DNA from: a virus | Virus record (IMG/VR): IMGVR_UViG_3300035126_001490 | Span: 1-35,793 of that record | DNA: 35,793 bases | Strand: one strand, 5' to 3' | In this document: piece by piece, positions 2,617 through 34,374 of the stretch | Numbering within the stretch: the first letter of the stretch is position 1 | Layout: the number at the start of each line of letters is the position of its first letter | Translations under genes and position numbers: made by a program | Notes under the pieces: model-generated | Database searches by the model: none | Told to the model about the DNA's origin: nothing | What the model saw: the letters and a program-made list of their open reading frames with translations, nothing else

Positions 2617-2948
2617 GTGATCCAGTAAAAGTTGAGAAAGTAGTCCGAATCAGCCTTGTCGCTAAAGCCGTGAAGAGGAAGTGCAGAAAAGAAGACCTAC
2701 ACCTCTACACTCTGAAAGACGTGACTTGGGATGGAGAAAACTTCCCTGAGTTTGACCCTGAATGGGAGAAGCTTGCTCTGGCTAAGTCGTATGAGATGTT
2801 TCGTACAATCGTCTCAAGCTACATCTTAGCTAAGCCGGTCAAGATCAAGCACTACGACGACGATACGGGAAAGTACTCCGTCGAGGAGTTCCTGTATCTA
2901 GGTGGAGACGAAAAAAAGTACCCACGACACAGTACAGTCTCTGAGTGA
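2613..2948 (+). CDS. hypothetical 111-residue protein
   Basis: The start overlaps the preceding stop (ATGA), and a GGAGG sits about ten bases upstream inside the previous gene, so translation is coupled. The product is acidic-basic mixed, with many tyrosines and lysines and a short hydrophobic stretch (MFRTIVSSYILAKPVKI) too weak for a membrane helix. No motif recognised. It is the last gene of the unit that ends at the terminator 2975-3005. Confidence 0.7.
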   Translation: MSDPVKVEKVVRISLVAKAVKRKCRKEDLHLYTLKDVTWDGENFPEFDPEWEKLALAKSYEMFRTIVSSYILAKPVKIKHYDDDTGKYSVEEFLYLGGDEKKYPRHSTVSE

Positions 2949-2974
2949 TCCCCCCGGGTTCTCGGAGGCAATAA

Positions 2975-3005
2975 GAAACACCTCACGGATGGGGTGTTTC
3001 TTTTA
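2975..3005 (+). terminator. intrinsic terminator
   Basis: GAAACACCTC (2975-2984) pairs with GGGGTGTTTC (2991-3000), ten pairs including one G-U, around ACGGAT, followed by TTTTAG. It ends the 1588-2948 unit and lies 33 bases before the next GGTATAAGTA element. Confidence 0.85.
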
Positions 3006-3037
3006 GCTAATCGCTGCGTAAAAACTTAGAATGGTCT

Positions 3038-3047
3038 GGTATAAGTA
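3038..3047 (+). promoter_or_regulatory. GGTATAAGTA promoter element, copy 2 (non-coding unit)
   Basis: Exact copy of the element, extended to GGTATAAGTAAAGTA, the same 15 bases found at 14862-14876. No credible gene follows before the terminator at 3202-3224, so it appears to drive a short RNA. Confidence 0.65.
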
Positions 3048-3053
3048 AAGTAC

Positions 3054-3225
3054 CAGGCAATTAGCGCGCAGCTGAGGCAAATGTATAGGGAAAGTATATT
3101 TGTTTGGATGCTTTGGTAAGTGGGGATCTTCAGTTGAGAGAGCTGAAGACAATTTATCATGTAGCAATCAAACAACTATATACAAACAACCAACATCCTC
3201 TCGCCCCAAAAGGGCGTTCTATTTA
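3054..3225 (+). ncRNA. putative small RNA, about 170 nt
   Basis: The unit is bounded by the promoter element at 3038-3047 and a hairpin terminator (CGCCC 3202-3206, GGGCG 3212-3216, then TTCTATTT). Inside is a 9-bp stem with a GAGAG loop (TCTTCAGTT 3127-3135, AGCTGAAGA 3141-3149). The only ATG frame is 12 codons (3081-3119) with a poor ribosome site. A TTG frame from 3100 runs on through the terminator into sequence antisense to the terminase and is unlikely to be used. The exact 5' end is inferred. A leader-peptide transcript is the alternative. Confidence 0.5.
3202..3224 (+). terminator. intrinsic terminator of the small RNA unit
   Basis: CGCCC/GGGCG with a CAAAA loop is followed by TTCTATTT. 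The stem is only five pairs but GC-rich. The run of T ends two bases before the terminase stop codon on the other strand, so plus- and minus-strand transcripts converge here with almost no spacer. Confidence 0.6.
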
Positions 3226-3226
3226 G

Positions 3227-6223
3227 CTAATACTGCTGATAGAAGTAGCGGGCCGCCTCCCTGCACATCAGAATTGAGTGGGCAGCGTCATCCGGCTCAG
3301 AAGGTCTATGGTCGTATCGAAGGCCGTGCACCCCTCCGAACTCAGCGTAGATATGCTCAATATCTACAAGGAAATCATGAGACTGCTCCCATGGCGGAAA
3401 GATGAACTTCTGGTTTTTTAGGTCATCAAAAAGGTCCGTGAGAACTTCTGTGCGGTTAAGCTGAACCTTATGACCCACAGGGTCGTACTTCTGACGCTCC
3501 TTCTGCATGCCGTTATGCTGAAACTTGATCACGCGACGAGGTCCAAACACGTCTTCTATGGTATCGTTCACACCCCACCCAAAGCCCCAATCAGACCCGA
3601 TCATGACTGCGTTGAACGCTTTACAGATCTGTATAATCTCACGCACGCAGTTACGGGGCAGCGCCTCTTCGCCTTTGAAACGCTTCTGAAAGAAAATGTA
3701 GAACTGCTTCGGATTGATGAACATACCGAGAGTTAGTACTGTATAAGAGGCGGTCTTAAGCCTGCCCTTGAAGTTTCGCTCGGTACCGTCTGCACCTTCA
3801 CCCCAGTCTATGCCAGCAAACACAGGCTGGTTCTGTGTTACTTCATCTGGCCTCCAGCGATAGGGGTGCTGCGGGCTGCACAAGCGCATCAGCTCAAAGC
3901 GCGAAATGGGCTTACTGGCCGAGTCGTATGAAAGCCCCAAGACTTCGTTATAGAACTGACCCTTCGAGTAGTGCTCCTTTTTCCAGACAAGCTCTTTCCA
4001 TTTCGTCGGAGACTGCATCCACGGAACCATAATCTGGTTCATATGGTAGCCGACCATGTCGTCTGTATTGTTGAAGGCAAACCACTTGCCTTTGGACGGA
4101 TCGATACGTTTTCCGCACTTATTGCAGATAGGGTACTCTTTACCGATAGACTTCTCGTCTAGGAAGTTCCAGTGGATTGGGATGTGAGCGTCGCAGGGTA
4201 CCAGCCATTCACACTGGTTACTGCTCTGCCACATTGTCTCGATATAGTTGTCCATCGTCAGAGGAGTGCCTGCAAAGATGACTTGAGGGTCCTCGGCGTG
4301 AGACAGCACTTCCATGATGACTGGGATATTCGCGGACAACATCGATTGGATCTCATCGATCATGAGTTCGTTGGCCGAGAGACCGCGAACACGCTCGGCG
4401 TTTAGGAAGGCCGATCTTAGGAAGATCAGGCTCCCGTTCGTAAAGCCCTTTTCGAACACCTGACTAGAGACCGAGGAGTCAATGAAGTACTTATTGATGA
4501 TGGGGCTATCCTGGGTCCATGGGGACAGCTTTCCGTTCGAAAATTGACGAGTCTGAAGATGGCTTGGGGATACGTAGACCGCCTTATTGTAAGGGCGGAC
4601 AATCGACCGGGTGATCAGGTAGTTGGCAAGCAGAGTTGAGTTATGCTGTACAATAAAGTTAGATATAAAGGTCTCGTTGCTAGTTTGGAGTGCCCACGTT
4701 TCTTTTTCTCCCACGTGTTCGATTGATATAATCTCATCCCAGAAGGTGTCTGACTCGCACAGAGAGGTGAGTGTTGGTTCTTCTAGTATGTTAGCAATCT
4801 TAGTGATCTTTTCGTAAGTAGGACTATACGAAGACGAGAGCTTGATCGCAGCCAGTGCTTTTGTCTTTGGGTTATCCTTCTGCCAGTACGTTCCTCTTTC
4901 TTCTCTAAGACGCCTTACCCACGCATGCACTTCTTTAGGGAGGGTATCGTAGTTGCTATTGGGAGATGTAGATGCAACATATTTCCCCGATTTCCCAAAA
5001 AGGGGGCCTAAAGCTTCGCAGAATATTTTTTTAGAGCGTTCAGTTACAACTGTGAGCAGGTGTGCGGGCTGAGCTCCTGCGGGAGTCTGAACCCGCCTAG
5101 AGACTTGGATTCCAAGTTTTCTAAGTAACGCCTCTACTTGGTCTGCCATCACAGGGCTTGTGGTGCAGTAGGTCGCATAGAGAGTGCCGTTTTTTGAGTT
5201 CTCACAGTAGCCGTCAGTACACCAAAGCCCTCTAAGCAGCTCGATGGTGGACTCTCGGTCCCACTCAAAGACTTCTTTTGGAAGATGTTTGGTGTGTGAT
5301 CTTTGCTGGAACAGATCTTCTTCCAGCATGAGCCACTTAGCTAGCCATGATCGTATGCTGAGTTCTACGCGGGCGTAATACTCTCTGCTGGGAAAAACAT
5401 TCGGTACAGTAGGATATCCGTTGGCCTCTGAAAACAGATCCAGTACGTGCGCGAGAAATTCTTTATTCCTCGTGTCGGTAGAGAGGGTGATCTTTCGCTG
5501 ACCATTTTTCTCGTACTTGTAAAAATAGCCATCCCCAAAGAGAGCTCCAACTAAGAAAGCAAATCTAAAGTTCTTGTTCCCAAAAAACCCAATATGCCGG
5601 GGAGAGGCAACTTTGTCGCCTACCACAAGATCGGCTGCGAGGGTCCATCCTGATAGCTTGAATAGGGGGTGGTTAGGGGTGCATTCGAAAGACTTACCTG
5701 AGCGCGTTGTAATTCTGAGGCAGGGCTGTGTGCCGTTTGATTTCAGAGCCGCTACCGAGACTGGCATTTGTTTTAGCAAGTCGGGGTCAAAACCCACAAT
5801 CAAGTCTCCGGGCTTGAGGGTCTGAATAGCCGTTACGCTGCCATTTGCTAAGTGAACGAGGGAGCCAGTAGGGAGGCACTTTTCATTCTGACGGGCCGTC
5901 TTAAAGATCATCCTAGGGTGCTTATTGTTGTAGCAGGGGTAAAGGTACTCACGCCCCTTGAAGCTGAAGGGAGCGCCGTCTAAGTAGACCAGGTTATGAA
6001 TCCAGTCGGTCATCTTCGCTTTGATGAAGTGCTTGGAGGTCCCGTCGGCTTGGAGGGTCTTTTGGACTTTCCAAGCAAGTTTTGGGGGTGTTTTGGAGTG
6101 GGCGCGCGTCTCGGAGGAGTGTGCTTTGTTTTTAGGTTCTACGTCATGACCCGCCGCGCCTGTCTCCTGTTTAGAGATTTCGTCTTCATTGGGGGAATTC
6201 GAGTCGTCGTAGTCATCGCGCAT
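3227..6223 (-). CDS. terL: terminase large subunit with in-frame intein
   Basis: The 998-residue precursor packages phage DNA into the procapsid as an ATPase-nuclease. An intein occupies residues 116-528, leaving a 585-residue mature enzyme, a normal TerL length. ATPase: Walker A is rebuilt by splicing as TARQNEK plus ST (residues 109-115, 529-530). Walker B is LMIDE (620-624), and the coupling motif is AGTP (651-654). A CxxC pair at C700/C703, with C671 and C677, may bind zinc. The RNase H-like nuclease has acidic residues in GIDWGEG (D806), GSDWGFG (D878) and PDDAAH (D978, D979). Start ATG 6223 has no clear ribosome site; a stem-loop (6246-6276) lies in the leader. The usual Gly before the Walker A Lys is Glu here. 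Terminase function is very likely. Confidence 0.93.
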   Translation of the reverse strand: MRDDYDDSNSPNEDEISKQETGAAGHDVEPKNKAHSSETRAHSKTPPKLAWKVQKTLQADGTSKHFIKAKMTDWIHNLVYLDGAPFSFKGREYLYPCYNNKHPRMIFKTARQNEKCLPTGSLVHLANGSVTAIQTLKPGDLIVGFDPDLLKQMPVSVAALKSNGTQPCLRITTRSGKSFECTPNHPLFKLSGWTLAADLVVGDKVASPRHIGFFGNKNFRFAFLVGALFGDGYFYKYEKNGQRKITLSTDTRNKEFLAHVLDLFSEANGYPTVPNVFPSREYYARVELSIRSWLAKWLMLEEDLFQQRSHTKHLPKEVFEWDRESTIELLRGLWCTDGYCENSKNGTLYATYCTTSPVMADQVEALLRKLGIQVSRRVQTPAGAQPAHLLTVVTERSKKIFCEALGPLFGKSGKYVASTSPNSNYDTLPKEVHAWVRRLREERGTYWQKDNPKTKALAAIKLSSSYSPTYEKITKIANILEEPTLTSLCESDTFWDEIISIEHVGEKETWALQTSNETFISNFIVQHNSTLLANYLITRSIVRPYNKAVYVSPSHLQTRQFSNGKLSPWTQDSPIINKYFIDSSVSSQVFEKGFTNGSLIFLRSAFLNAERVRGLSANELMIDEIQSMLSANIPVIMEVLSHAEDPQVIFAGTPLTMDNYIETMWQSSNQCEWLVPCDAHIPIHWNFLDEKSIGKEYPICNKCGKRIDPSKGKWFAFNNTDDMVGYHMNQIMVPWMQSPTKWKELVWKKEHYSKGQFYNEVLGLSYDSASKPISRFELMRLCSPQHPYRWRPDEVTQNQPVFAGIDWGEGADGTERNFKGRLKTASYTVLTLGMFINPKQFYIFFQKRFKGEEALPRNCVREIIQICKAFNAVMIGSDWGFGWGVNDTIEDVFGPRRVIKFQHNGMQKERQKYDPVGHKVQLNRTEVLTDLFDDLKNQKFIFPPWEQSHDFLVDIEHIYAEFGGVHGLRYDHRPSEPDDAAHSILMCREAARYFYQQY
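4640..5878 (-). other. intein with LAGLIDADG homing endonuclease inside TerL
   Basis: Residues 116-528 of the terminase precursor (413 aa) form a complete intein. It begins with Cys116 (CLPTGSLVHLANG, block A). Block B is CTPNHPLF, with the Thr-x-x-His pair T182/H185. It ends at FISNFIVQHN with His-Asn528, followed by Ser529 as the +1 nucleophile. Two LAGLIDADG-type helices are seen at about 222-233 (FAFLVGALFGDG) and 328-338 (ELLRGLWCTDG), each with the acidic residue needed for cutting, so the endonuclease may still be active. Insertion lies between the Walker A Lys and Ser/Thr, the most conserved site of the host protein, as expected for a homing element. Removal is needed for a working ATPase. 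Confidence 0.93.
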
Positions 6224-14050: not shown

Positions 14051-14375
14051 TGTACACGCTTGTGAGGTGTTTATCTTCAAGAGAAGTCTCATTCCAGATG
14101 TGTATGTGAAGTTCTACTCTGATAAAACGGAATTTGAACTCTACGAGGATGACTACTTTAAGGTAGACCTGATGCACTTTCTGCAGCGAATGGGATACAA
14201 GGGCCACCACTTTGATCGCGCAGAACTTGGGATGCAAGGACACAACTTCGTGGTGTTTGAGCCCGGAAAGTCTTTTGAGTCGTTCGCTAAGAAGCTTGGC
14301 TGGATTGATGAAGCTGGCCCAGATCCTGTAGGCGAACAGCAAGAACTTTTTCAGGACAATTCGCTGCTTCACTAG
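13989..14375 (+). CDS. hypothetical 128-residue protein
   Basis: ATG 13989 follows GGGGAGAGAG and overlaps the preceding gene by 62 bases. The frame is kept to its own stop at 14373-14375, where the ssb promoter begins. The protein is soluble, aromatic-rich and mixed alpha/beta (DVYVKFYSDKTEFELYEDD). No motif recognised. The large overlap is unusual, but both frames have good ribosome sites. Confidence 0.65.
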   Translation: MDWEQERISLGNGLFRSRNGDVHACEVFIFKRSLIPDVYVKFYSDKTEFELYEDDYFKVDLMHFLQRMGYKGHHFDRAELGMQGHNFVVFEPGKSFESFAKKLGWIDEAGPDPVGEQQELFQDNSLLH

Positions 14376-14384
14376 GTATAAGTA
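14375..14384 (+). promoter_or_regulatory. GGTATAAGTA promoter element, copy 3 (ssb)
   Basis: Exact copy whose first base is the last base of the previous stop codon. The ssb ATG lies 61 bases after the element. It is followed immediately by a perfect hairpin and a palindrome in the leader. Confidence 0.75.
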
Positions 14385-14445: not shown

Positions 14446-14838
14446 ATGTACCAGAAATTGATTTTGGTCGGAAGACTCGGACAAGACCCAGAACTGAAGA
14501 CAGTCGGACAAGATCCACTCTGTAAGTTCTCAGTAGCTACGTCTAACGTGTGGACTGACCAAGCCGGTCAAAAGCATGAAGACACTACGTGGCACAACGT
14601 GGATGTTTGGGGTAAGCCCGCCCAGAACTGCGCAACCTACTTGAAGAAAGGTTCGCTGGTGATGGTTGAGGGTGAAGTGAAAATTACGAAGAAGGAAGAC
14701 AAGACATTCTACGGCGTGAAAGCTTACAACGTCAGATTCCTGTCGCCAAAGACTGAGGGAGCCGGGACAACTGGAATCTCGCAGGCCACTTCTGCTCCAG
14801 CGGCGACTACCTTCACCGAGAACGACATTCCGTTCTGA
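14446..14838 (+). CDS. ssb: single-stranded DNA-binding protein
   Basis: The 130-residue product coats single-stranded DNA in replication and recombination. It begins MYQKLILVGRLGQDPELK and has the OB-fold landmarks WHNVDVWGKPAQNCATYLKKG and VMVEGEVKITKKEDK. A short Ser/Ala/Thr-rich linker leads to the acidic tip NDIPF, the partner-binding tail of bacterial SSB. It is shorter than typical cellular SSB (about 160-180 residues) because the linker is brief. It is under its own GGTATAAGTA element, and no terminator separates it from the following non-coding unit, so its transcript may extend to 15204. Confidence 0.93.
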   Translation: MYQKLILVGRLGQDPELKTVGQDPLCKFSVATSNVWTDQAGQKHEDTTWHNVDVWGKPAQNCATYLKKGSLVMVEGEVKITKKEDKTFYGVKAYNVRFLSPKTEGAGTTGISQATSAPAATTFTENDIPF

Positions 14839-14861
14839 CAGCCCAATACTATGATGTATCG

Positions 14862-14871
14862 GGTATAAGTA
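14862..14871 (+). promoter_or_regulatory. GGTATAAGTA promoter element, copy 4 (non-coding unit)
   Basis: Exact copy 23 bases after the ssb stop, extended to GGTATAAGTAAAGTA like copy 2. The next 330 bases hold no convincing gene but are rich in secondary structure and end in a terminator. Confidence 0.7.
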
Positions 14872-14877
14872 AAGTAA

Positions 14878-15204
14878 GGGATAGTTAGTAGTAGCTCCAA
14901 ACAGGTCAAAAATAACTTTGCATGTAAGTTATATTTCATCTTTTGAGTGGCTACGAATGCTATTGCACTTACTCAGTAACCATCACACCCAGAATCTTAA
15001 TCTGTTTAAACATCCGTTCCAGTGACTGGGCGGCAATACGATACGTTGTTACTTGTAAAGCAACTTTACAAGTCTGGTGGATTAGGGTTCTGGGTAGTGA
15101 GTTACAGAGTGGGTTGCGCCACCTGTATCCCCTAACGTGCACGTTGGGGAGATATGGGTGGCGGTAACCCTAACCGCAAGCTCGGGAAACCCCCGAGATT
15201 TTTT
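14878..15204 (+). ncRNA. putative structured non-coding RNA, about 325 nt
   Basis: The unit is bounded by the promoter element at 14862 and the terminator at 15181-15204. A perfect 10-bp hairpin ACTTGTAAAG-CAA-CTTTACAAGT lies at 15051-15073. A long imperfect hairpin spans 15111-15170: GGGTT/AACCC, GCCACC/GGTGGC, TGTAT/ATATG (with G-U pairs), CCCC/GGGG and AACGT/ACGTT pair in order around a GC loop, about 25 pairs. An alternative stem GCGGT/ACCGC (15161-15177) would compete with its base. The only frame of any length starts at a TTG (14943) without a ribosome site. The 5' end is inferred. It could also be the 3' part of the ssb transcript. Confidence 0.6.
15181..15204 (+). terminator. intrinsic terminator of the structured RNA
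   Basis: CTCGGG (15181-15186) pairs with CCCGAG (15192-15197), followed by ATTTTTT. On the opposite strand the same T-run bases form the stop region of the convergent gene ending at 15203. Confidence 0.8.
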
Positions 15205-15724
15205 AGTAGTATTGATTACCGCTGTAAACAACTGGCGGCGGGGTTTGCGGCTGTGGATCGTTCCCCCCACCTAGGGCTGCCTGCATAGCTCCGTAGGCAG
15301 CAACACCTGTTAGGACGGGATGGCGAGCGGCAAATGACGGTCCTTTGGGTTTGTTTTTTAAGTCACGCACGCGCTGTGCCCGCTCGGTGGCTTTTTGCAA
15401 AGCGTCATTCGCGGTGTTGAAGTGTTCGCTCGGTGTCATTTGAGGGAGGCCTTGCTGCGCGCGGCGAGCTGCTTCACGCTGAACGGCACCTTCGGCGTAG
15501 TTTTGGCCAAAGGGGGTCTTCCCTTTAGCTGCCCTAAATCCTTCGGTGAAGTTACTGAGGCCCTGGGTTTGGATATTCCTAGGTTTGAAAGGCGCTTTTA
15601 TTGCGTTCTTAGCGCTTCTTGCCGCCGCCGAGAGTGACCCCGCAGCCTGTCCCATCCTGCTACCTACCGTAGACATTAGGCCTCCGAACATGGCCTCTTT
15701 TTTAAATCCTTGTGTGAATCCCAT
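15203..15724 (-). CDS. small virion-like protein with GFxK tag
   Basis: The 173-residue protein starts MGFTQGFKKEAMFGGLMSTV, with the N-terminal tag shared by four other proteins here. It is rich in Ala, Gly, Lys and Arg, with a weakly hydrophobic Ala/Gly helix near the C-terminus (HPVLTGVAAYGAMQAALGGG), and ends GNQYY. Its ATG overlaps the stop of the polymerase gene (TAATG), so the two are translationally coupled. It may therefore accompany the polymerase in the particle. Function unknown. Confidence 0.75.
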   Translation of the reverse strand: MGFTQGFKKEAMFGGLMSTVGSRMGQAAGSLSAAARSAKNAIKAPFKPRNIQTQGLSNFTEGFRAAKGKTPFGQNYAEGAVQREAARRAQQGLPQMTPSEHFNTANDALQKATERAQRVRDLKNKPKGPSFAARHPVLTGVAAYGAMQAALGGGNDPQPQTPPPVVYSGNQYY

Positions 15725-18700
15725 TAGTAGCTCTCTTTCTTCTTACCAAAGCTTGCGCCGTATGCGAATGCCGGGACGGGGTGCCGGCCTTCTAACTGAC
15801 TGGACCAGCTTTCGGCGGCTCCTTGAGTCAATGCTTGCTTGACGTATCGGTACCCAAGTTGACTCATCCAGTCCTTTCTAAGAAGGGGTATCCTAGTAAT
15901 ACCCTCTAGCTGGGGGGTATGTACAATAGGGTCTTTTACTACCTCAATCTTACCATTCTGAGCCGCGGATTTCAGCTTGGGAAGGTCTCTGTCGGTAATT
16001 TCATGGAACTTGGGTAGGTTTCCTACTGGGTTTGCTAGGTTGTAGCCAACGGCGTCTTCGGGCCGTACCGATACCTTCCGGCTTTCGTTGTAGTGCTCGG
16101 CCGCCGTGAAAGGGATTAGGTCTCCTGGTAAAACCCCTGCGTGTCTTGGGGCGTTTTTGACCAGAGTGCTGTCAGCAACGGACCTGACCACAGTCTCGAA
16201 TACTTTGCGGTGAGTATTCACGCCTTGGTCGACAAAGGTCCTTTTTAGCTCGTCTACAATGTATTCCTGAGCCGCTCCCATGCCTTTTTGCTTCAATAAC
16301 TTATGTGGGTTTAAAACGCCTTCTGACAGTTTATCCCCCGCTTGAACACTCTCTCCCACTTTTACGGCGGGGTTCAGACCTGGGCGTACTGTGTGCAGCT
16401 TTTCCCCCACATGAATGTGAAATCCTCCGGCAGGGCTCCGTCCTATTTTGGTGACCTTACCCGCGACATCTGCCGTGGTTGCTTCACCGGAAACGTACTT
16501 AGGCATGTTCAGCAAGTCAGACACACGCTTGAACCCGGAAACCTGAGGGGCTCCGCTAGAGACCCCGCCGGTGTGGAACGTACGCATCGTCATTTGAGTG
16601 ACGGGCTCACTCATTGTCTGGCCCATCTTAGCCCCGATGTTCTCTCCGATCTCGGGGCGCTTTCCGTGCTCATCTATCCCGAAGCAGTGCGCACAAGTCC
16701 CTTTAGTCTCTAAACACTTTAAAGGTGACCGGACTGTCAAAGTCTTGACCCCGCCCCTCTTCATGACGCTGAGGAGCTGTGGAGTCACTTGAGTATTTCG
16801 AGCGGATCCGTGCTGGTCGTGCGCAAGATAGCGATCCATTATGTCTGTACTGTCTACAGACATAACGGTCCCTTTTTTGGTTCCGCAATCATCGGCGCTT
16901 ACTAGATTGTTGATAGTGGCGGCCATGATATCCTTGTTCAGCGCGCCGGGCTTGGAGGTGGCTAGAGCTCGGTCGATCATCCCTTTGCGCACTCCGTACG
17001 CGCTGACAAAGTAGTCTGAGGTAGTTACCCCCTCCGCGTAAGATTTCTTGATGGGAACGGGAACTTTCCTGTCCTTTGCGTCCATAAGTATGCCCGGAGC
17101 AGAGACAATCTGCATAAGCTGAGAGTCGCTGCCGCGAGCCCCGCTGGAGACCATGTGGTAGAAGTTGTTGTCTGTTTTCTTTAGTTGGTCTTTGGTGCGG
17201 TTGTAGGCCTCTTTTGCGACGCCTTCGTACATGTCCGCAATTTTCTTGTCCAACTCAGGCCCGGGCTTGTGCGCTCTACGTAGCGCCGCAGCTTGCTGAT
17301 CTGCGCGATGGAATAGGGTGTCGCGCATCTTAGTATCGATTTGTAGATCTTTTATGGAAGTCGTAAAGCCGCGCTCGTAGGCGTGCTCGTCGCCCATCAA
17401 TTTCAGCTTCTGGACTAGGTTAGGGAACTCTTTCGGCAGCTCGCGCGCCAGCTGGTTATAGAGCGTCTTGGATTTCTTACCATCCAGGCTTTCCGAGACG
17501 TGGTATTTCGGAGGTAGTACGGAGTTGAGTTTTTTACGCCCCTCAGGGTTTTGTGACATGAAATAGATGCCAATCTGGCTTTCCTGCGAGGGTACAGTCA
17601 TCAACTCTCCGGTGCCTGGCTTGAATAGATTCTGCGAAGGCAACATCTTGTGACTCTCTCGCAGCGCCTCTTCTGTGGTGGGCACGTGGATGTTGACCGC
17701 GTCTCCGTCGAAATCCCCGCCGTATCCTTTAAGAACCAGGGGCGGGACTTTAATAGCCAGGCTGTCCGTAAGGACGGGCTTGTGAGCCATGATCGAGAAC
17801 TTATGAAGCGATGGCGCGCGGTTCATTAGAACGGTGCGCTGCTTCATCGTGTCCATGAGCATTTTCTTAGCCAGAGGAGTTTTGGCCTCAATCTCTTTTC
17901 TAGCAAAGTCAGATTTATATCCGTTCTTACCAAACTCTCGGATTACGAACGGATTGAATACCTTCCAGGCCATTTTCTCCGGAACCCCAATCTCGTCCAT
18001 GTGGAGCTCCGGACCCGCTGTAATAACTCCTCGGCCAACCAGATCCTGTCGTTTGCTCAGGAGCTTTTGGATAAAAAAGCCCTGCTTTGGAGTTTCATTT
18101 GCGATCTCGTCGATAAACCCATTGATAGGCTGGTCTTTGCCGCGCGTAAGGACGGGCTCAAGCCCTGCGACCGCTCGGGTGGCTTTATAGGTCTCGTTTC
18201 GTATCTCTCCCTTGACCCTGTCTGGAAGGAACTTCATCACCGGGTATTTCGAAGTCTCCGTTAATATACCCACGTTCTGGTAGAGCAGGTTTGGAGACGC
18301 TACGACAATCCCTCTGTCCTTGCTTTCTTGGATGGGTCGGAACATCGGCGGTATTACCGGGATATGCTGTCTTAGATAAGCCTCGTCAGGCTTCATTCCC
18401 AGATCATCCAGCGCCTGTAGTATTCGTATTTTTTTATTTAGGCCGTCTAGGTGCCGGGGGTCACTAGATTTCCTCAGCAGCGCACGCGTTTTGGTCAGCT
18501 CACCTTGGACATCGATGTTTTTGAGAAGGGACTCGAAAGCTTTGCCTCCAGTCAGACTCCCTTCTGTTTTCTCGCCGGATATTTTTCCATCCTTGGAAAG
18601 ATGGCGTGTACCCGCAATCAGACCCTCGTAATCAGGCTGCTTGATACCGGCTAGGTTTTTAATAGCCGACTCAAAAACCGGGTTGGGTAGTTTTTCGGAT

Positions 18701-21700
18701 AGGCTCATGTGCGCGTACCGATTACCGTTCATGCCGCCGGTTATGCGCACGTCAAAGAAACCGTTAGGTATTTCCTTCATGTTTTTCGCGTAGAAAAACT
18801 GAGGATCTGTGATCTGCCCGTTGCTGATTTTCTTTACGTCTTCGTCAGTCATGGGGGCCAGACGCACTTCGTTTCCAACTTTGTGCGTGTTGACGCCTGC
18901 GCCCCGTATCATGTGCAGAAACTTCTGATAGGCGAAGCTTTCCTTTGGCGGGGGGAGTGGGCGCCCCTGCTCCAGGGCCCTCCAGAACTCATCGTTTCTC
19001 TCAGACTTGATGTGCGCATCGAGGAGGTTCTTTTTTGCTCCGTGAGAGAGCATTGAATAGAAGGTGAGCTGGTCTAGGGTCTTAGTCCCCTCTTCGCCGC
19101 CTTTGATTGGCTGTAGGTTGGCGTCGTACCCCTCTCCGGGCATACGAGCTGAGAAGCCAGCCTTACCAGTTTTGGCGAGGCGCAGGATATGAGGCATGCC
19201 TACGTGCACGTCACCGATCTTCTTACCCTCGGGGGTGTACATAGTTTCAACGTCAGAAATCCCGTGCTTCTTAAGTTCGTCTAGAATTTTCTTATTAGTA
19301 TTTTCGGCGGAGAAGTTTTTGATCTTGTACGGCTGTCCCACTTTAGCCGCAATCTTTCCAGCCGCCGACTCGTATAGCTGGCCTAGGTTAATACGGCCGA
19401 CGACTCCGTGCGGATTGAGAAACACATCAGGAACAGAGCCGTCCGAGAATTTAGGAGCATCTTTGTCTGCGATGACTTTGGTAATGACTCCTTTGTTCCC
19501 GTGAACGCCCGATAATTTGTCCGACTCTTTTGCAGGCTCTACTGCCTTGACGTACACAAGGACTTCGCTGCCCCTCTTAGCGATATCGGTAACTACTCCA
19601 GGGAACTCTCCGTTGTAAGTCACGGAGGCGTTCGACCACGGCATGATCAAACTTTTGTTTAGTTTTCTCAGGCTCATGTTTTCTGGGTTGTTTAAGTTGT
19701 AGTGCAGTCCTGCAATCAAGACCTGGCCCGGCTGAACTACCTGACCCTTTTTGATAATTCCGCTATCGTCGTACTTGGTGACGTCATCCTTTTTTAGGAT
19801 GTTAGGATAATATCCCAGGAATCTTTTGAAGTTTAACTCCGTCTTTCCTTTTTCAAGCGGGAATCCTTGCTTGTATATCTGCTCTGCTGCCAATTTTTTG
19901 GCGGCACTCTCAGTGATGACAATTCCGTCTTCGAACGTGAGTCCGGGGTACGGAAGATACGCTACCTTGAGGTTAGTGCCTAATGCGAGCTGGCCGTTTT
20001 TGGTGAAATTACTGTCCGCAACTACCTGACCCCCCTTCACTCTATCCCCCACTTTTACCGTAGGGGTGTGGTGCAGGTGAGTTTTTTGGTTTAGCGGGAA
20101 GTTATTGTATAGAGGAACTTTCTTGCCGCTAATCTTAATATGGTCTGGGGTTATTTCTTGGACCACCCCATCATTAGTCGCCTTGGCTGAAAACTCGCTT
20201 CCGATAAGCTCATGGAAAGTTTTCTTGTCGTCCACAAGTGTCTGTACCAGAGGGGCTTCGCGGTGCACCAGCGGCAGGGTCTGGCCAAGCATCTTGGCGG
20301 CCATCACCGCGCGGTTACCTTGGTCGTTCTTTAGGAAAGGTACCAGATTGGTGGCGTAGCTGAACAGCCGTGAGGCCTCTGGTATTACGTAGTCGACTTG
20401 CTTGGATGGTACTACAGACACCTTACCTTCGTGCTGGACCCGCACCTCAGCCGCATTTCTGAACTTGGCTTCGTGGATCTCATCAGGGAACGCAACGACC
20501 TTGGAGTGCAGCTCTCGGGGGGTAAGAAATTCCAGTTTTCCAGTCCTTACATTTTTAACAGCCGTCCTAAGCTCGCGGCCGTCTTTAATCACGCCGGCAG
20601 ACATGTGCATGGTCGTGCCGATTTTCTCGCTTTCTGGAGTATGCACTGGATCTATATATCCAAGGTGTGACGGGTGGACCTCGCGCAAGTTGTCCGCCAC
20701 GGCATGCGCACTTGTAATGCCTCCAGTACCATGAACAGTTAGCTTGTTCATTTCGGAGATCATGTGGACTGGATTATACTGCTCCGGAGTAGAAGTTCTA
20801 TTGTCACTGACGAAGAAGTTTTCAACGGGCGACGTCAGTTTGCGGAAGTCGATCATCCGCTTTAGGTTATTGCGGGATCCTAAGTGGCGCGACAGCATCC
20901 GTTTAAGAGCGTCCTGCTCTTTCTTGCTACCTAGCTTGTCGTGGATCATGTCCTCGACTGATCTTATTTCTTTGAATAGCAGGTTCTCTGGGTCGTCGGC
21001 CTGCGCCTTACCTTGATAGGCAGCGAGGATCTTGCCCGAAGTGTCTAGTAGTAGCTTAGATGACAGCTGACTGTGCTCGTGACCCAAGGTCATCCCGGTT
21101 ACCTTGGGGTCAAGTTGCGTCGTCTTTGCATACTCGCGTAGCTTTTCTTGGGCGGTGCTTGCGTTGTCTGTGGTTGCTTTGGCCAGCTTGTCCGCAAATC
21201 CGATAATATGCTGGGGCGACTCGCGTTTGTTCGCTGCAAAAACCTGTTCACCCCAGGCTTTGATCATGTCGTTGTCAGAAGCTCCGAGCGCTTTCAGCAA
21301 CGGATACAGGGGCTTGTGAGATCCCCCGACTTTAATGGTGTATCTGTTTGTGCTCGGGTCTAAGTTTATATCAAAGTTTTGCGTGCGCTCCCCGCCCAGA
21401 GAGATCATTCCTTTGAAAGTATCTCCCTTCTGAGACCTGACTACATAGGCCCCCGGTTTACGGATCATCTGGTTTGCAACCTGATATTCGTTGCCCTTAA
21501 CGATAAATGAGTTTCTCGGGGTCAGTTTCGGTATAGTGGACAGCTTTACCTTATCTAGCCTGTCTACGATCTTACCGTCGGGATCCTTAAGGACGAGGCT
21601 TGCGTACACCGGAAGTCCCCACGTGCCGCCCCCTAGTTTGGTTTTTTTCTGCGACGTGTAGTCCTGAGTGTCCAGCTCACGCTCGTCAACCCAGATCTTG

Positions 21701-21810
21701 GCAAGCTCCATCCGGTGACCGTTTTTCTCAACGGGGAACAGCTGCTGGTACGCCCCAATGACCTCGTCGGTCAGTGCCTTAAATTGATCGGATCCGGAAA
21801 GTGTTCTCAT
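15724..21810 (-). CDS. single-chain beta/beta-prime DNA-directed RNA polymerase
   Basis: The 2028-residue protein joins both large subunits of a multisubunit-type RNA polymerase. The beta half (about 1-1030) has FIVKGNEYQVANQMIRKPGA, REVHPSHLGYIDPVHTPES, PFLKNDQGNRAVMAAKMLGQ, GLTFEDGIVITES and LSGVHGNKGVI. The beta-prime half follows with VGRGVITAGPELH, LMNRAPSLHKFSIMAHKPVL and the catalytic Mg site DFDGD (1366-1370). It also has a bridge helix (YFVSAYGVRKGMIDRAL, about 1597), zinc cysteines C1642/C1699/C1706/C1709 and a trigger-loop helix (TMRTFHTGG, about 1740). It is far shorter than E. coli beta plus beta-prime (about 2750), and the beta-prime N-terminal zinc finger is missing. No full alpha, omega or sigma is seen nearby. 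All main active-site elements appear intact. Placement among virion genes allows packaging in the particle. Confidence 0.95.
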   Translation of the reverse strand: MRTLSGSDQFKALTDEVIGAYQQLFPVEKNGHRMELAKIWVDERELDTQDYTSQKKTKLGGGTWGLPVYASLVLKDPDGKIVDRLDKVKLSTIPKLTPRNSFIVKGNEYQVANQMIRKPGAYVVRSQKGDTFKGMISLGGERTQNFDINLDPSTNRYTIKVGGSHKPLYPLLKALGASDNDMIKAWGEQVFAANKRESPQHIIGFADKLAKATTDNASTAQEKLREYAKTTQLDPKVTGMTLGHEHSQLSSKLLLDTSGKILAAYQGKAQADDPENLLFKEIRSVEDMIHDKLGSKKEQDALKRMLSRHLGSRNNLKRMIDFRKLTSPVENFFVSDNRTSTPEQYNPVHMISEMNKLTVHGTGGITSAHAVADNLREVHPSHLGYIDPVHTPESEKIGTTMHMSAGVIKDGRELRTAVKNVRTGKLEFLTPRELHSKVVAFPDEIHEAKFRNAAEVRVQHEGKVSVVPSKQVDYVIPEASRLFSYATNLVPFLKNDQGNRAVMAAKMLGQTLPLVHREAPLVQTLVDDKKTFHELIGSEFSAKATNDGVVQEITPDHIKISGKKVPLYNNFPLNQKTHLHHTPTVKVGDRVKGGQVVADSNFTKNGQLALGTNLKVAYLPYPGLTFEDGIVITESAAKKLAAEQIYKQGFPLEKGKTELNFKRFLGYYPNILKKDDVTKYDDSGIIKKGQVVQPGQVLIAGLHYNLNNPENMSLRKLNKSLIMPWSNASVTYNGEFPGVVTDIAKRGSEVLVYVKAVEPAKESDKLSGVHGNKGVITKVIADKDAPKFSDGSVPDVFLNPHGVVGRINLGQLYESAAGKIAAKVGQPYKIKNFSAENTNKKILDELKKHGISDVETMYTPEGKKIGDVHVGMPHILRLAKTGKAGFSARMPGEGYDANLQPIKGGEEGTKTLDQLTFYSMLSHGAKKNLLDAHIKSERNDEFWRALEQGRPLPPPKESFAYQKFLHMIRGAGVNTHKVGNEVRLAPMTDEDVKKISNGQITDPQFFYAKNMKEIPNGFFDVRITGGMNGNRYAHMSLSEKLPNPVFESAIKNLAGIKQPDYEGLIAGTRHLSKDGKISGEKTEGSLTGGKAFESLLKNIDVQGELTKTRALLRKSSDPRHLDGLNKKIRILQALDDLGMKPDEAYLRQHIPVIPPMFRPIQESKDRGIVVASPNLLYQNVGILTETSKYPVMKFLPDRVKGEIRNETYKATRAVAGLEPVLTRGKDQPINGFIDEIANETPKQGFFIQKLLSKRQDLVGRGVITAGPELHMDEIGVPEKMAWKVFNPFVIREFGKNGYKSDFARKEIEAKTPLAKKMLMDTMKQRTVLMNRAPSLHKFSIMAHKPVLTDSLAIKVPPLVLKGYGGDFDGDAVNIHVPTTEEALRESHKMLPSQNLFKPGTGELMTVPSQESQIGIYFMSQNPEGRKKLNSVLPPKYHVSESLDGKKSKTLYNQLARELPKEFPNLVQKLKLMGDEHAYERGFTTSIKDLQIDTKMRDTLFHRADQQAAALRRAHKPGPELDKKIADMYEGVAKEAYNRTKDQLKKTDNNFYHMVSSGARGSDSQLMQIVSAPGILMDAKDRKVPVPIKKSYAEGVTTSDYFVSAYGVRKGMIDRALATSKPGALNKDIMAATINNLVSADDCGTKKGTVMSVDSTDIMDRYLAHDQHGSARNTQVTPQLLSVMKRGGVKTLTVRSPLKCLETKGTCAHCFGIDEHGKRPEIGENIGAKMGQTMSEPVTQMTMRTFHTGGVSSGAPQVSGFKRVSDLLNMPKYVSGEATTADVAGKVTKIGRSPAGGFHIHVGEKLHTVRPGLNPAVKVGESVQAGDKLSEGVLNPHKLLKQKGMGAAQEYIVDELKRTFVDQGVNTHRKVFETVVRSVADSTLVKNAPRHAGVLPGDLIPFTAAEHYNESRKVSVRPEDAVGYNLANPVGNLPKFHEITDRDLPKLKSAAQNGKIEVVKDPIVHTPQLEGITRIPLLRKDWMSQLGYRYVKQALTQGAAESWSSQLEGRHPVPAFAYGASFGKKKESY

Positions 21811-28962: not shown

Positions 28963-29394
28963 ATGGAAACTCAAACCAACTTCGGACAAATTCGTGATCT
29001 GCTCTCTGAGGCTCAGCTGAACGCTATCCTTGACGCCGCCGAGGCAAGGGCAAAGGAGCTGCTGAAGGACGCTAAGTTCGATAACGACAATAGCCGTAAA
29101 ACCGCTATTGATGCTAAAGCAGGAGAGATCCTGTTTGGCGGTCTTCAAAAGGTCTTGGACGAACACAAAACGTTCCTCCACCTGACAAAGCTAGGCTGGT
29201 GGGGAGACAAGTTCGTTAGCGCTGCTATGAATGCTATCGTGCTTTTTGGCGGTATTGCAGTGGCTTCCTACATCTCAAAGCCAAGTCAGAAGTCTGATGC
29301 AGAGAAGGACGCAGCTCCAGCAGGAGAAGCCAACCCCTTCAAAACTAAAGCTACTGACCGTCCGATTCGCCCGTCGCGCGAGCTCGTTGCCTAA
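28963..29394 (+). CDS. single-gene island: small membrane protein
   Basis: The 143-residue product has a helical, charged N-terminal part (METQTNFGQIRDLLSEAQLN), a transmembrane segment at about 87-104 (AMNAIVLFGGIAVASYI) and a polar tail with NPF (EANPFKTKATDRPIRP). ATG 28963 follows AAAGGAAA. Like 21937 it is a lone plus-strand gene with its own promoter and a double terminator, inserted in minus-strand virion genes, and has the same layout of helical domain, membrane segment and NPF tail. A host-modifying or superinfection role would fit a moron but is inference. Confidence 0.8.
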   Translation: METQTNFGQIRDLLSEAQLNAILDAAEARAKELLKDAKFDNDNSRKTAIDAKAGEILFGGLQKVLDEHKTFLHLTKLGWWGDKFVSAAMNAIVLFGGIAVASYISKPSQKSDAEKDAAPAGEANPFKTKATDRPIRPSRELVA

Positions 29395-29403
29395 CACAGC
29401 AAC

Positions 29404-29493
29404 AGGCTTGCGTCCGGACGCAAGCCTAGCTGTTGGGTCACCAAGGGGTGCAGTCTTTCTCATTCGTGAGAGAGGCTGCACCCCGATTTTTTT
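29404..29493 (+). terminator. palindrome plus strong intrinsic terminator
   Basis: A perfect 24-bp palindrome (AGGCTTGCGTCC and its complement, 29404-29427) is followed by GGGGTGCAG (29445-29453) pairing with CTGCACCCC (29476-29484). The latter has an inner TCTC/GAGA stem and is followed by seven T. The T-run overlaps the stop codon of the convergent gene ending at 29492. Confidence 0.88.
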
Positions 29494-30106
29494 AGGTCGT
29501 GTAGTCAGCCACCATCGGAGGCAGCAGGTCTAAGATATTGGCGGATGCTTGATCAGGGATAGTGATCTGCGACCTAATCCCAGAGCGCTCGATCTCTATG
29601 ATCACTACAGAGTTTCTGACAACAGCAAGCTCGAACTGACCGTCGATGTCCACGGTGGTTACGAGGGCGTCAGCCTGGATTACGTTCTGACCAAACCGAG
29701 CGGGGAACTCGGCAGGCCTGACAACTATCCTAGTGTTGTGAGGCACCTTGCCCCCGATGTCGCGCAGGTTGCCGGAAATAACACACATTTCTGGCGGAGT
29801 CACAGAGCTCGGAGCAACTACAGAAAGCTCGGCGTGGGTGAAGTTATCAAAGTCAGGTCCAGACAGAGTAAACAGAAAACTACCAACTGTATTTAAGTCT
29901 ACCGCAGACCACTTCAGAGCATAGTAACCTAGGCCAATCTCTACCCAGCTCGTCGACGTGAGTGTCTTAGACGTGAGGGATGTCTGTCCCTGTTTGCGAA
30001 ACTTGCACGTGACGTCTGCGGGCAGGACACCGAGAGCAGGAGCTCCGCCAAGACTGAGATAAATATTACTCTCGTAGGGTAGCGACTGCGTCACCTGTCC
30101 AGACAT
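29492..30106 (-). CDS. two-domain beta-rich virion protein
   Basis: ATG 30106 has AGGAG inside the previous stop region. The 204-residue protein has an N-terminal beta domain (VTCKFRKQGQTSLTSKTL; WVEIGLGYYALKWSAVD; FTLSGPDFDNF) of a type frequent in phage decoration or baseplate proteins. The C-terminal domain begins MCVISGNLRDIGGKVPHNTR, like that of 25770-26609. No signal or membrane segment. Likely a surface part of the particle. Exact role unknown. Confidence 0.65.
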   Translation of the reverse strand: MSGQVTQSLPYESNIYLSLGGAPALGVLPADVTCKFRKQGQTSLTSKTLTSTSWVEIGLGYYALKWSAVDLNTVGSFLFTLSGPDFDNFTHAELSVVAPSSVTPPEMCVISGNLRDIGGKVPHNTRIVVRPAEFPARFGQNVIQADALVTTVDIDGQFELAVVRNSVVIIEIERSGIRSQITIPDQASANILDLLPPMVADYTT

Positions 30107-33816: not shown

Positions 33817-34374
33817 ATGAGTTACCTACACCACAAGCCTGTACCGAAGATCGTCCGCCCCCTCAAAGAGGAATGGTTCTTAGATATTCAGACGCACATT
33901 CGCGAGCTGCGTAGGGTATTCGACTGGCCCGGCGTTGCCTACCACGATAAGAGCTCCGATCCTCACGATGTCTTTAATAGATGGGTATGGTACAACCTGC
34001 CGCTACTTGTACGGTACCACCACGATCCGCAGTTCATTGCGTACGTATCCGATCTAGCTGGAAGACCTGTTAAGCCTACCTACGTATTCACTTCTATGTA
34101 CGGCGCAGACGGGATCTGCCCTCTACACGTCGACCGACCCCAGTGCCAGTTTTCAGTCGACATGCTTGTCGCGTCGAACCACAAAGACAAGCCATGGCCG
34201 ATATATGTCGAAGATGAGCCTTACATTCTGGAGCGGCCCGGAGATGCCGTCTTCTACTCCGGCACGGGCCAGAAGCACTACCGCAACCCCATGAAAGAAG
34301 AGTCGGATGCAACTAAAGTTGACCTCGTATTCTTTCACTTCGCCCCTATTGAGTGGCAAGGGGAGCTTAAGTAA
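33817..34374 (+). CDS. 2-oxoglutarate/Fe(II)-dependent oxygenase-like protein 1
   Basis: The 185-residue protein has the double-stranded beta-helix landmarks of 2OG-Fe(II) oxygenases. The iron ligands are H104-x-D106 (CPLHVDRP) and distal His154 (GTGQKHYRNP), with a nearby Arg156 and the turn ERPGDAVFYSG before it. Substrate is unknown; aspartyl/asparaginyl or prolyl hydroxylation of a protein is typical for this size. ATG 33817 has AGGAG upstream, and its stop overlaps the next gene's start by one base (TAATG). No exact promoter element is seen before it. Confidence 0.75.
   Translation: MSYLHHKPVPKIVRPLKEEWFLDIQTHIRELRRVFDWPGVAYHDKSSDPHDVFNRWVWYNLPLLVRYHHDPQFIAYVSDLAGRPVKPTYVFTSMYGADGICPLHVDRPQCQFSVDMLVASNHKDKPWPIYVEDEPYILERPGDAVFYSGTGQKHYRNPMKEESDATKVDLVFFHFAPIEWQGELK

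Follow-up and report, generated by a model that had tools for sequence, protein, structure and literature searches.

The window, which is the whole analysed stretch of 35,793 nt, a fragment (35.8 kb) from the genome of a large tailed phage, probably contains a dedicated gene for a non-coding RNA between ssb and the convergent end of the RNA polymerase operon. As read from the sequence, this unit has a promoter of the early-strand type, a folded body without a gene and a terminator, and its position recurs in related phages. The unit is real and goes beyond spacer, as an earlier note on this DNA had proposed in describing it as a dedicated RNA; this is supported by the genuine promoter signal that precedes it and by the promoter-led, gene-less units that 13 relatives carry at this junction.

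Genomic context and phage group

The RNA polymerase encoded in the window is a beta-beta' fusion in a single chain of 2028 aa (15724-21810, minus strand; Pfam Rpb2 domains 3 and 6, and Rpb1 domains 2, 4 and 5). At the end of the polymerase operon, a gene for a 173-aa protein (15203-15724, minus strand) converges on the unit. The large terminase subunit (3227-6223, minus strand; Pfam) carries an intein with a LAGLIDADG endonuclease domain. The early-strand cluster has ssb as its final protein gene (14446-14838, plus strand; PHROG 44, E 2.3e-31). A protein with a match to PHROG families annotated as ferrochelatase (2.7e-22) is encoded at 33817-34374 (plus strand).

Weinheimer and Aylward 2020 (PMC7481178) described, as mReC, tailed phages whose RNA polymerase is of the multi-subunit type; a term search of their paper gave no hits for promoters, sigma factors or non-coding RNA. 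The window has both beta and beta' RNA polymerase domains (Pfam) as well as the terminase of a tailed phage, and its home group is probably these RNAP-encoding Caudovirales or one near them; the likeness lies in the tailed phage type and the multi-subunit-type polymerase, whereas beta and beta' are fused in the window. Judged by the polymerase (57-63% identical), the closest relatives come from IMG/VR, as contigs that reach 182 kb (phages of ~175 kb), and no cultured phage was among the nearest relatives found. Identity to the window polymerase falls to ~30% in annotated records such as those of Vibrio phage D69 and Salmonella phage Arash. The polymerase of one relative (L003) has an additional in-frame insertion of ~1 kb, possibly an intein.

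Promoter element

The unit starts with GGTATAAGTA (14862-14871, plus strand), the exact promoter element recognized in the earlier note, which occurs six times without mismatch in the window, each time on the plus strand. When up to one mismatch is allowed, there are 10 matches in the window against 1.4 expected, a number reached by none of 100 shuffles. Another exact copy (14375-14384, plus strand) is the promoter of ssb, 62 nt upstream of its Shine-Dalgarno-led ORF, and no terminator was seen between ssb and 14862.

The 8-mer GGTATAAG has a strong strand preference in five relatives (10:1, 10:1, 10:1, 12:1 and 7:0; 49:4 in sum) and in a 28-kb stretch of Salmonella phage Arash (7:0), and its sites mostly precede a Shine-Dalgarno sequence and an ORF located at most ~150 nt downstream. 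In L270, the genome that contains locus L013, a tmRNA on the minus strand (475-902; Rfam RF00023, E 6e-37), not reported by ARAGORN, stands behind a GGTATAAG promoter, with its mature 5' end 8 nt downstream of the motif. This distance puts GGTATAAG at the position of a -10 element, and the tmRNA shows that this promoter also yields non-coding RNA. In this phage group, GGTATAAG is by these sequence criteria a true promoter signal. Because the motif takes the -10 position in L270, transcription of the window unit would start at approximately 14875-14879. In the genome of L006 (L258), GGTATAAG promoters occur in tandem, 156 nt apart, with a hairpin-rich, gene-less stretch after each, and these stretches are possibly further small RNAs.

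Extent and coding potential of the unit

The gene-less stretch measures ~335 nt, from the promoter at 14862 to an intrinsic terminator at 15181-15203 (plus strand) that is composed of a 6-bp stem (15181-15197) and a T-run, the latter containing the stop codon of the convergent 173-aa gene. The pentamer AGCTA (TTTTTTAGCTAT) is common after terminator T-runs in the window and in the relatives, also where no convergent gene ends. The description of about 330 bases without a convincing gene, closed by an intrinsic terminator, agrees with what was found here: the sole plus-strand ORF above 60 aa has 74 aa and a TTG start (14943-15167), with no Shine-Dalgarno sequence, no Pfam match and no tblastn match in phages. 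The protein-coding reading was dropped on the lack of a Shine-Dalgarno sequence and of relatives for this ORF. No conserved codons were seen in the units of the relatives found, which are not alignable to that of the window.

Predicted fold

Nearly the whole length of the unit is predicted to fold, in four consecutive parts corresponding to domains I, II and III and the terminator. According to the MFE helices, domain I (14872-14970) is an elongated hairpin, and domain II (14971-15110) is branched and closed by a 30-pair helix of 14971-15003 with 15079-15110. The perfect 10-bp hairpin at 15051-15073 that had been reported before is present within domain II; the folding of 14872-15110 into two large domains had been missed. 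Domain III (15111-15170), an 83% inverted repeat, is a hairpin with a UGCA loop, -44.3 kcal/mol and pair probabilities of 0.96-1.0, and has 27 pairs where about 25 had been claimed. The stem at 15161-15177 said to compete with its base is possible on paper (5 bp, -7.2 kcal/mol), but each of its pairs has a probability below 2% in the ensemble, and the switching suggested for these stems is not supported. No gene that could be regulated follows on the plus strand before 21937, and a riboswitch or attenuator was rejected for both reasons.

The region 14860-15210 has a folding energy of -141 kcal/mol compared with -93.8 +/- 5.7 for dinucleotide shuffles (z -8.3), and the transcript alone has an MFE of -139 compared with -89 (z -9.45). 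The complementary strand is less stable, with z from -5.5 to -5.8. When both strands were compared, the plus-strand helices (z -8.9) contained 14 G-U pairs and no A-C mismatch, and the minus-strand fold (z -5.5) contained 3 G-U pairs and 4 A-C mismatches. These counts fit selection on the transcribed RNA, for a plus-strand fold that was itself optimised on that strand.

Strong folding was also found at 1-300, 2001-2300, 2801-3100 and 29201-29700 in a scan of the window; therefore, folding by itself does not single out the unit. The fold at 2001-2300 is unusually stable on both strands and lies within an ORF of 342 aa (1588-2616); it includes a perfect 12-bp inverted repeat (2213-2267). Behind a small early gene (28963-29394), the stretch 29395-29500 (plus strand) has very strong hairpins of 15 and 18 bp and a T-run. 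A second gene-less, folded unit led by GGTATAAGTA, of ~180 nt, occupies 3038-3226 (plus strand; z -4.3) and closes with a terminator that faces the 3' end of the terminase gene. In the genome of L003 (L295), the early strand directly 3' of the terminase gene is GT-rich and non-coding for more than 900 nt before a terminator, with a G period of ~5.25 nt, which is half a DNA turn, and autocorrelation peaks at 5, 10, 16 and 21; the matching place in another relative (L299) is GGA-rich, with 42 GGA per kb.

Recurrence of the unit in relatives

The last genes of the early-strand cluster, to which ssb belongs, adjoin the convergent polymerase operon in the relatives. At this junction, a promoter-led unit without a credible gene is present in 13 of them, with RNAP 40-63% identical. 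Twelve of these units are led by GGTATAAG (L003, L006, L007, L010, L013, L176, L178, L180, L188, L203, L224 and L226), and the unit of L175 stands behind GGTATATG. Their lengths range from ~130 to 445 nt, and most end in a hairpin and T-run, often with AGCTA next to it; in L224, a gene comes after the unit and no clear terminator is present, and in L003 one more small gene separates the unit from the junction. Including the window, 12 of the 14 units reach z <= -2, with L224 borderline, and those of L010 and L180 fold within chance.

By an automatic rule that calls a site gene-less if no Shine-Dalgarno-led ORF of at least 50 codons starts within 200 nt, 11 of the 13 sites at this position were gene-less, compared with 9 of the 62 other sites of the same motif (Fisher p 2e-6), the former having been picked by position, though not blindly. 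In more distant relatives (RNAP ~40% identical) the gap is mostly absent, and the feature therefore looks like a property of one clade. The Arash-like loci L005 and L015 were rejected as further cases, given that their promoter-led units without a long ORF hold small Shine-Dalgarno-led ORFs.

The content of the units is not shared. Comparisons by blastn between units gave nothing past the promoter, and no fold common to the window unit and those of the relatives was found. Covariance models built for domains I and II from the window sequence alone recovered only the window itself from 0.92 Mb of relatives, and nothing meaningful from nine of the relatives' units with filters off. The searches for close relatives used ssb, RNAP, the 173-aa neighbour, the terminase and a promoter-based pattern as probes, and all relatives found in this way have RNAP at most 63% identical; as their units differ from that of the window in both sequence and fold, they gave no alignment from which covariation of the helices could be read. 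The heptamer AGCTGTA, present in five of the 13 relatives' units and absent from the window, was too weak to be taken as a common motif (3 of 200 shuffles reach as many).

Alternative explanations

The main rival is that the unit is a boundary element, in which hairpins and terminator block early read-through into the polymerase operon, and the reverse, while the RNA itself is idle. The convergent junction in all members and the stop codon inside the T-run agree with this, as do the strong hairpins ahead of T-runs elsewhere in the phage (29395-29500) and the second unit (3038-3226) facing the terminase gene. However, a promoter of its own and 300 nt of folded sequence would be superfluous for such a role, and the gaps at other junctions in the relatives are merely 30-80 nt, making this reading unlikely.

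At origins of T4, replication draws on an R-loop or primer RNA transcribed from a promoter. A similar origin-type RNA would account for a promoter and a place that are kept when the sequence is not, and the unit is promoter-led and non-coding, adjoins ssb and has a content that is not conserved. A fully folded RNA forms R-loops poorly, however, and there is no sharp change of GC skew at the unit in three near-full-length relatives and in a fourth with a mapped place, whereas the change at the unit in the window is terminus-like. A replication origin is thus unsupported by GC skew in the window and four relatives, and this explanation is improbable.

Even less probable is the presence of MITE-like inverted-repeat remnants behind a promoter, with the structure as a by-product of the repeats. 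The inverted repeats are near-perfect and have no homologues, and a similar origin has been suggested for a phage-satellite ncRNA (PMC7567579); yet no second copy exists in the window or the relatives, a single position recurs in 14 genomes, and the transcribed strand has more G-U pairs than A-C mismatches. Slightly behind it comes a decoy of the 6S type, aimed at the RNA polymerase of the phage or the host, which the long series of helices, the early cluster and the neighbouring polymerase operon would suit; there is no 6S match in Rfam, no promoter-like element was recognised in a central bubble, and the relatives' units have other architectures. The least probable alternative is a small peptide with incidental structure. 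Shine-Dalgarno-led ORFs of 15-39 codons in the units of several relatives speak for it; however, these ORFs are unrelated in sequence, none of this kind occurs in the window, L007, L013 or L188, and the 74-aa ORF of the window lacks both a Shine-Dalgarno sequence and relatives.

Comparison with known RNAs

No Rfam 15 family matched the window, including the GOLLD, ROOL and 6S models, and the units of nine relatives gave no match up to E 1; tRNA and tmRNA were absent from the window by ARAGORN and Rfam. Large autonomous non-coding transcripts without an assigned role, located in spaces without ORFs, are known from other phages and resemble the unit in these respects. These include a highly abundant ncRNA of ~800 nt in Vibrio phage ICP1 (PMC7567579), in comparison with ~335 nt for the unit, and the GOLLD and ROOL families (PMC12286853), which are often near tRNAs and are defined by conserved sequence and structure, in contrast to the unit, which has no Rfam match in a window without tRNA.

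Phage-encoded sRNAs such as PreS (lambda, ~88 nt) and VpdS (VP882, ~50 nt) act through Hfq and base pairing to redirect host or phage expression (PMC12197685). They are short and Hfq-dependent, whereas the window unit is longer and almost fully paired, with few unpaired stretches in its predicted fold. The unit has one trait of Hfq-dependent sRNAs, an intrinsic terminator with a U tail, which is also found in most bacterial intrinsic terminators. Like 6S RNA, it is long and mostly double-stranded, but no central bubble resembling an open promoter was recognised in it. The unit would thus be a phage ncRNA gene of an unusual sort, in which position and promoter recur and the content differs.

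Proposed role and significance

Overall, the best explanation, held at about even confidence, is a stand-alone ncRNA gene giving a stable, discrete RNA that would act in trans and whose content would be adapted to the host. The unit would be transcribed alongside ssb and the other GGTATAAG genes, and its RNA would accumulate as a discrete and stable species of ~325-330 nt. The folded RNA may then act in trans, most likely by binding or titrating an RNA-binding protein or nuclease of the host or the phage, for instance as a decoy, a nuclease bait or a chaperone competitor. Pairing with mRNA would be a less likely route, because the nearly full pairing of the RNA leaves little free sequence and makes protein binding more natural than antisense action. 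A trans-acting regulator or decoy is a plausible role, with chances slightly below even. Differences in sequence and fold among the relatives' units would mirror adaptation to different hosts, given that fast replacement of content is expected of a host-directed factor. More doubtful is the extension of this idea to a class of RNA genes set by position and promoter, and not by sequence or fold, with the content being replaced as hosts change; each phage of the lineage would then keep an early, folded ncRNA opposite its RNA polymerase operon, in a place reserved for RNAs that serve host takeover or counter-defence.

Large phages that encode an RNA polymerase of the multi-subunit type are frequent in metagenomes and hardly studied. 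The known promoter, together with the position in the clade, would offer a direct route to such RNAs without sequence similarity, and raises the question of the role of an RNA whose existence, and not its sequence, is conserved.
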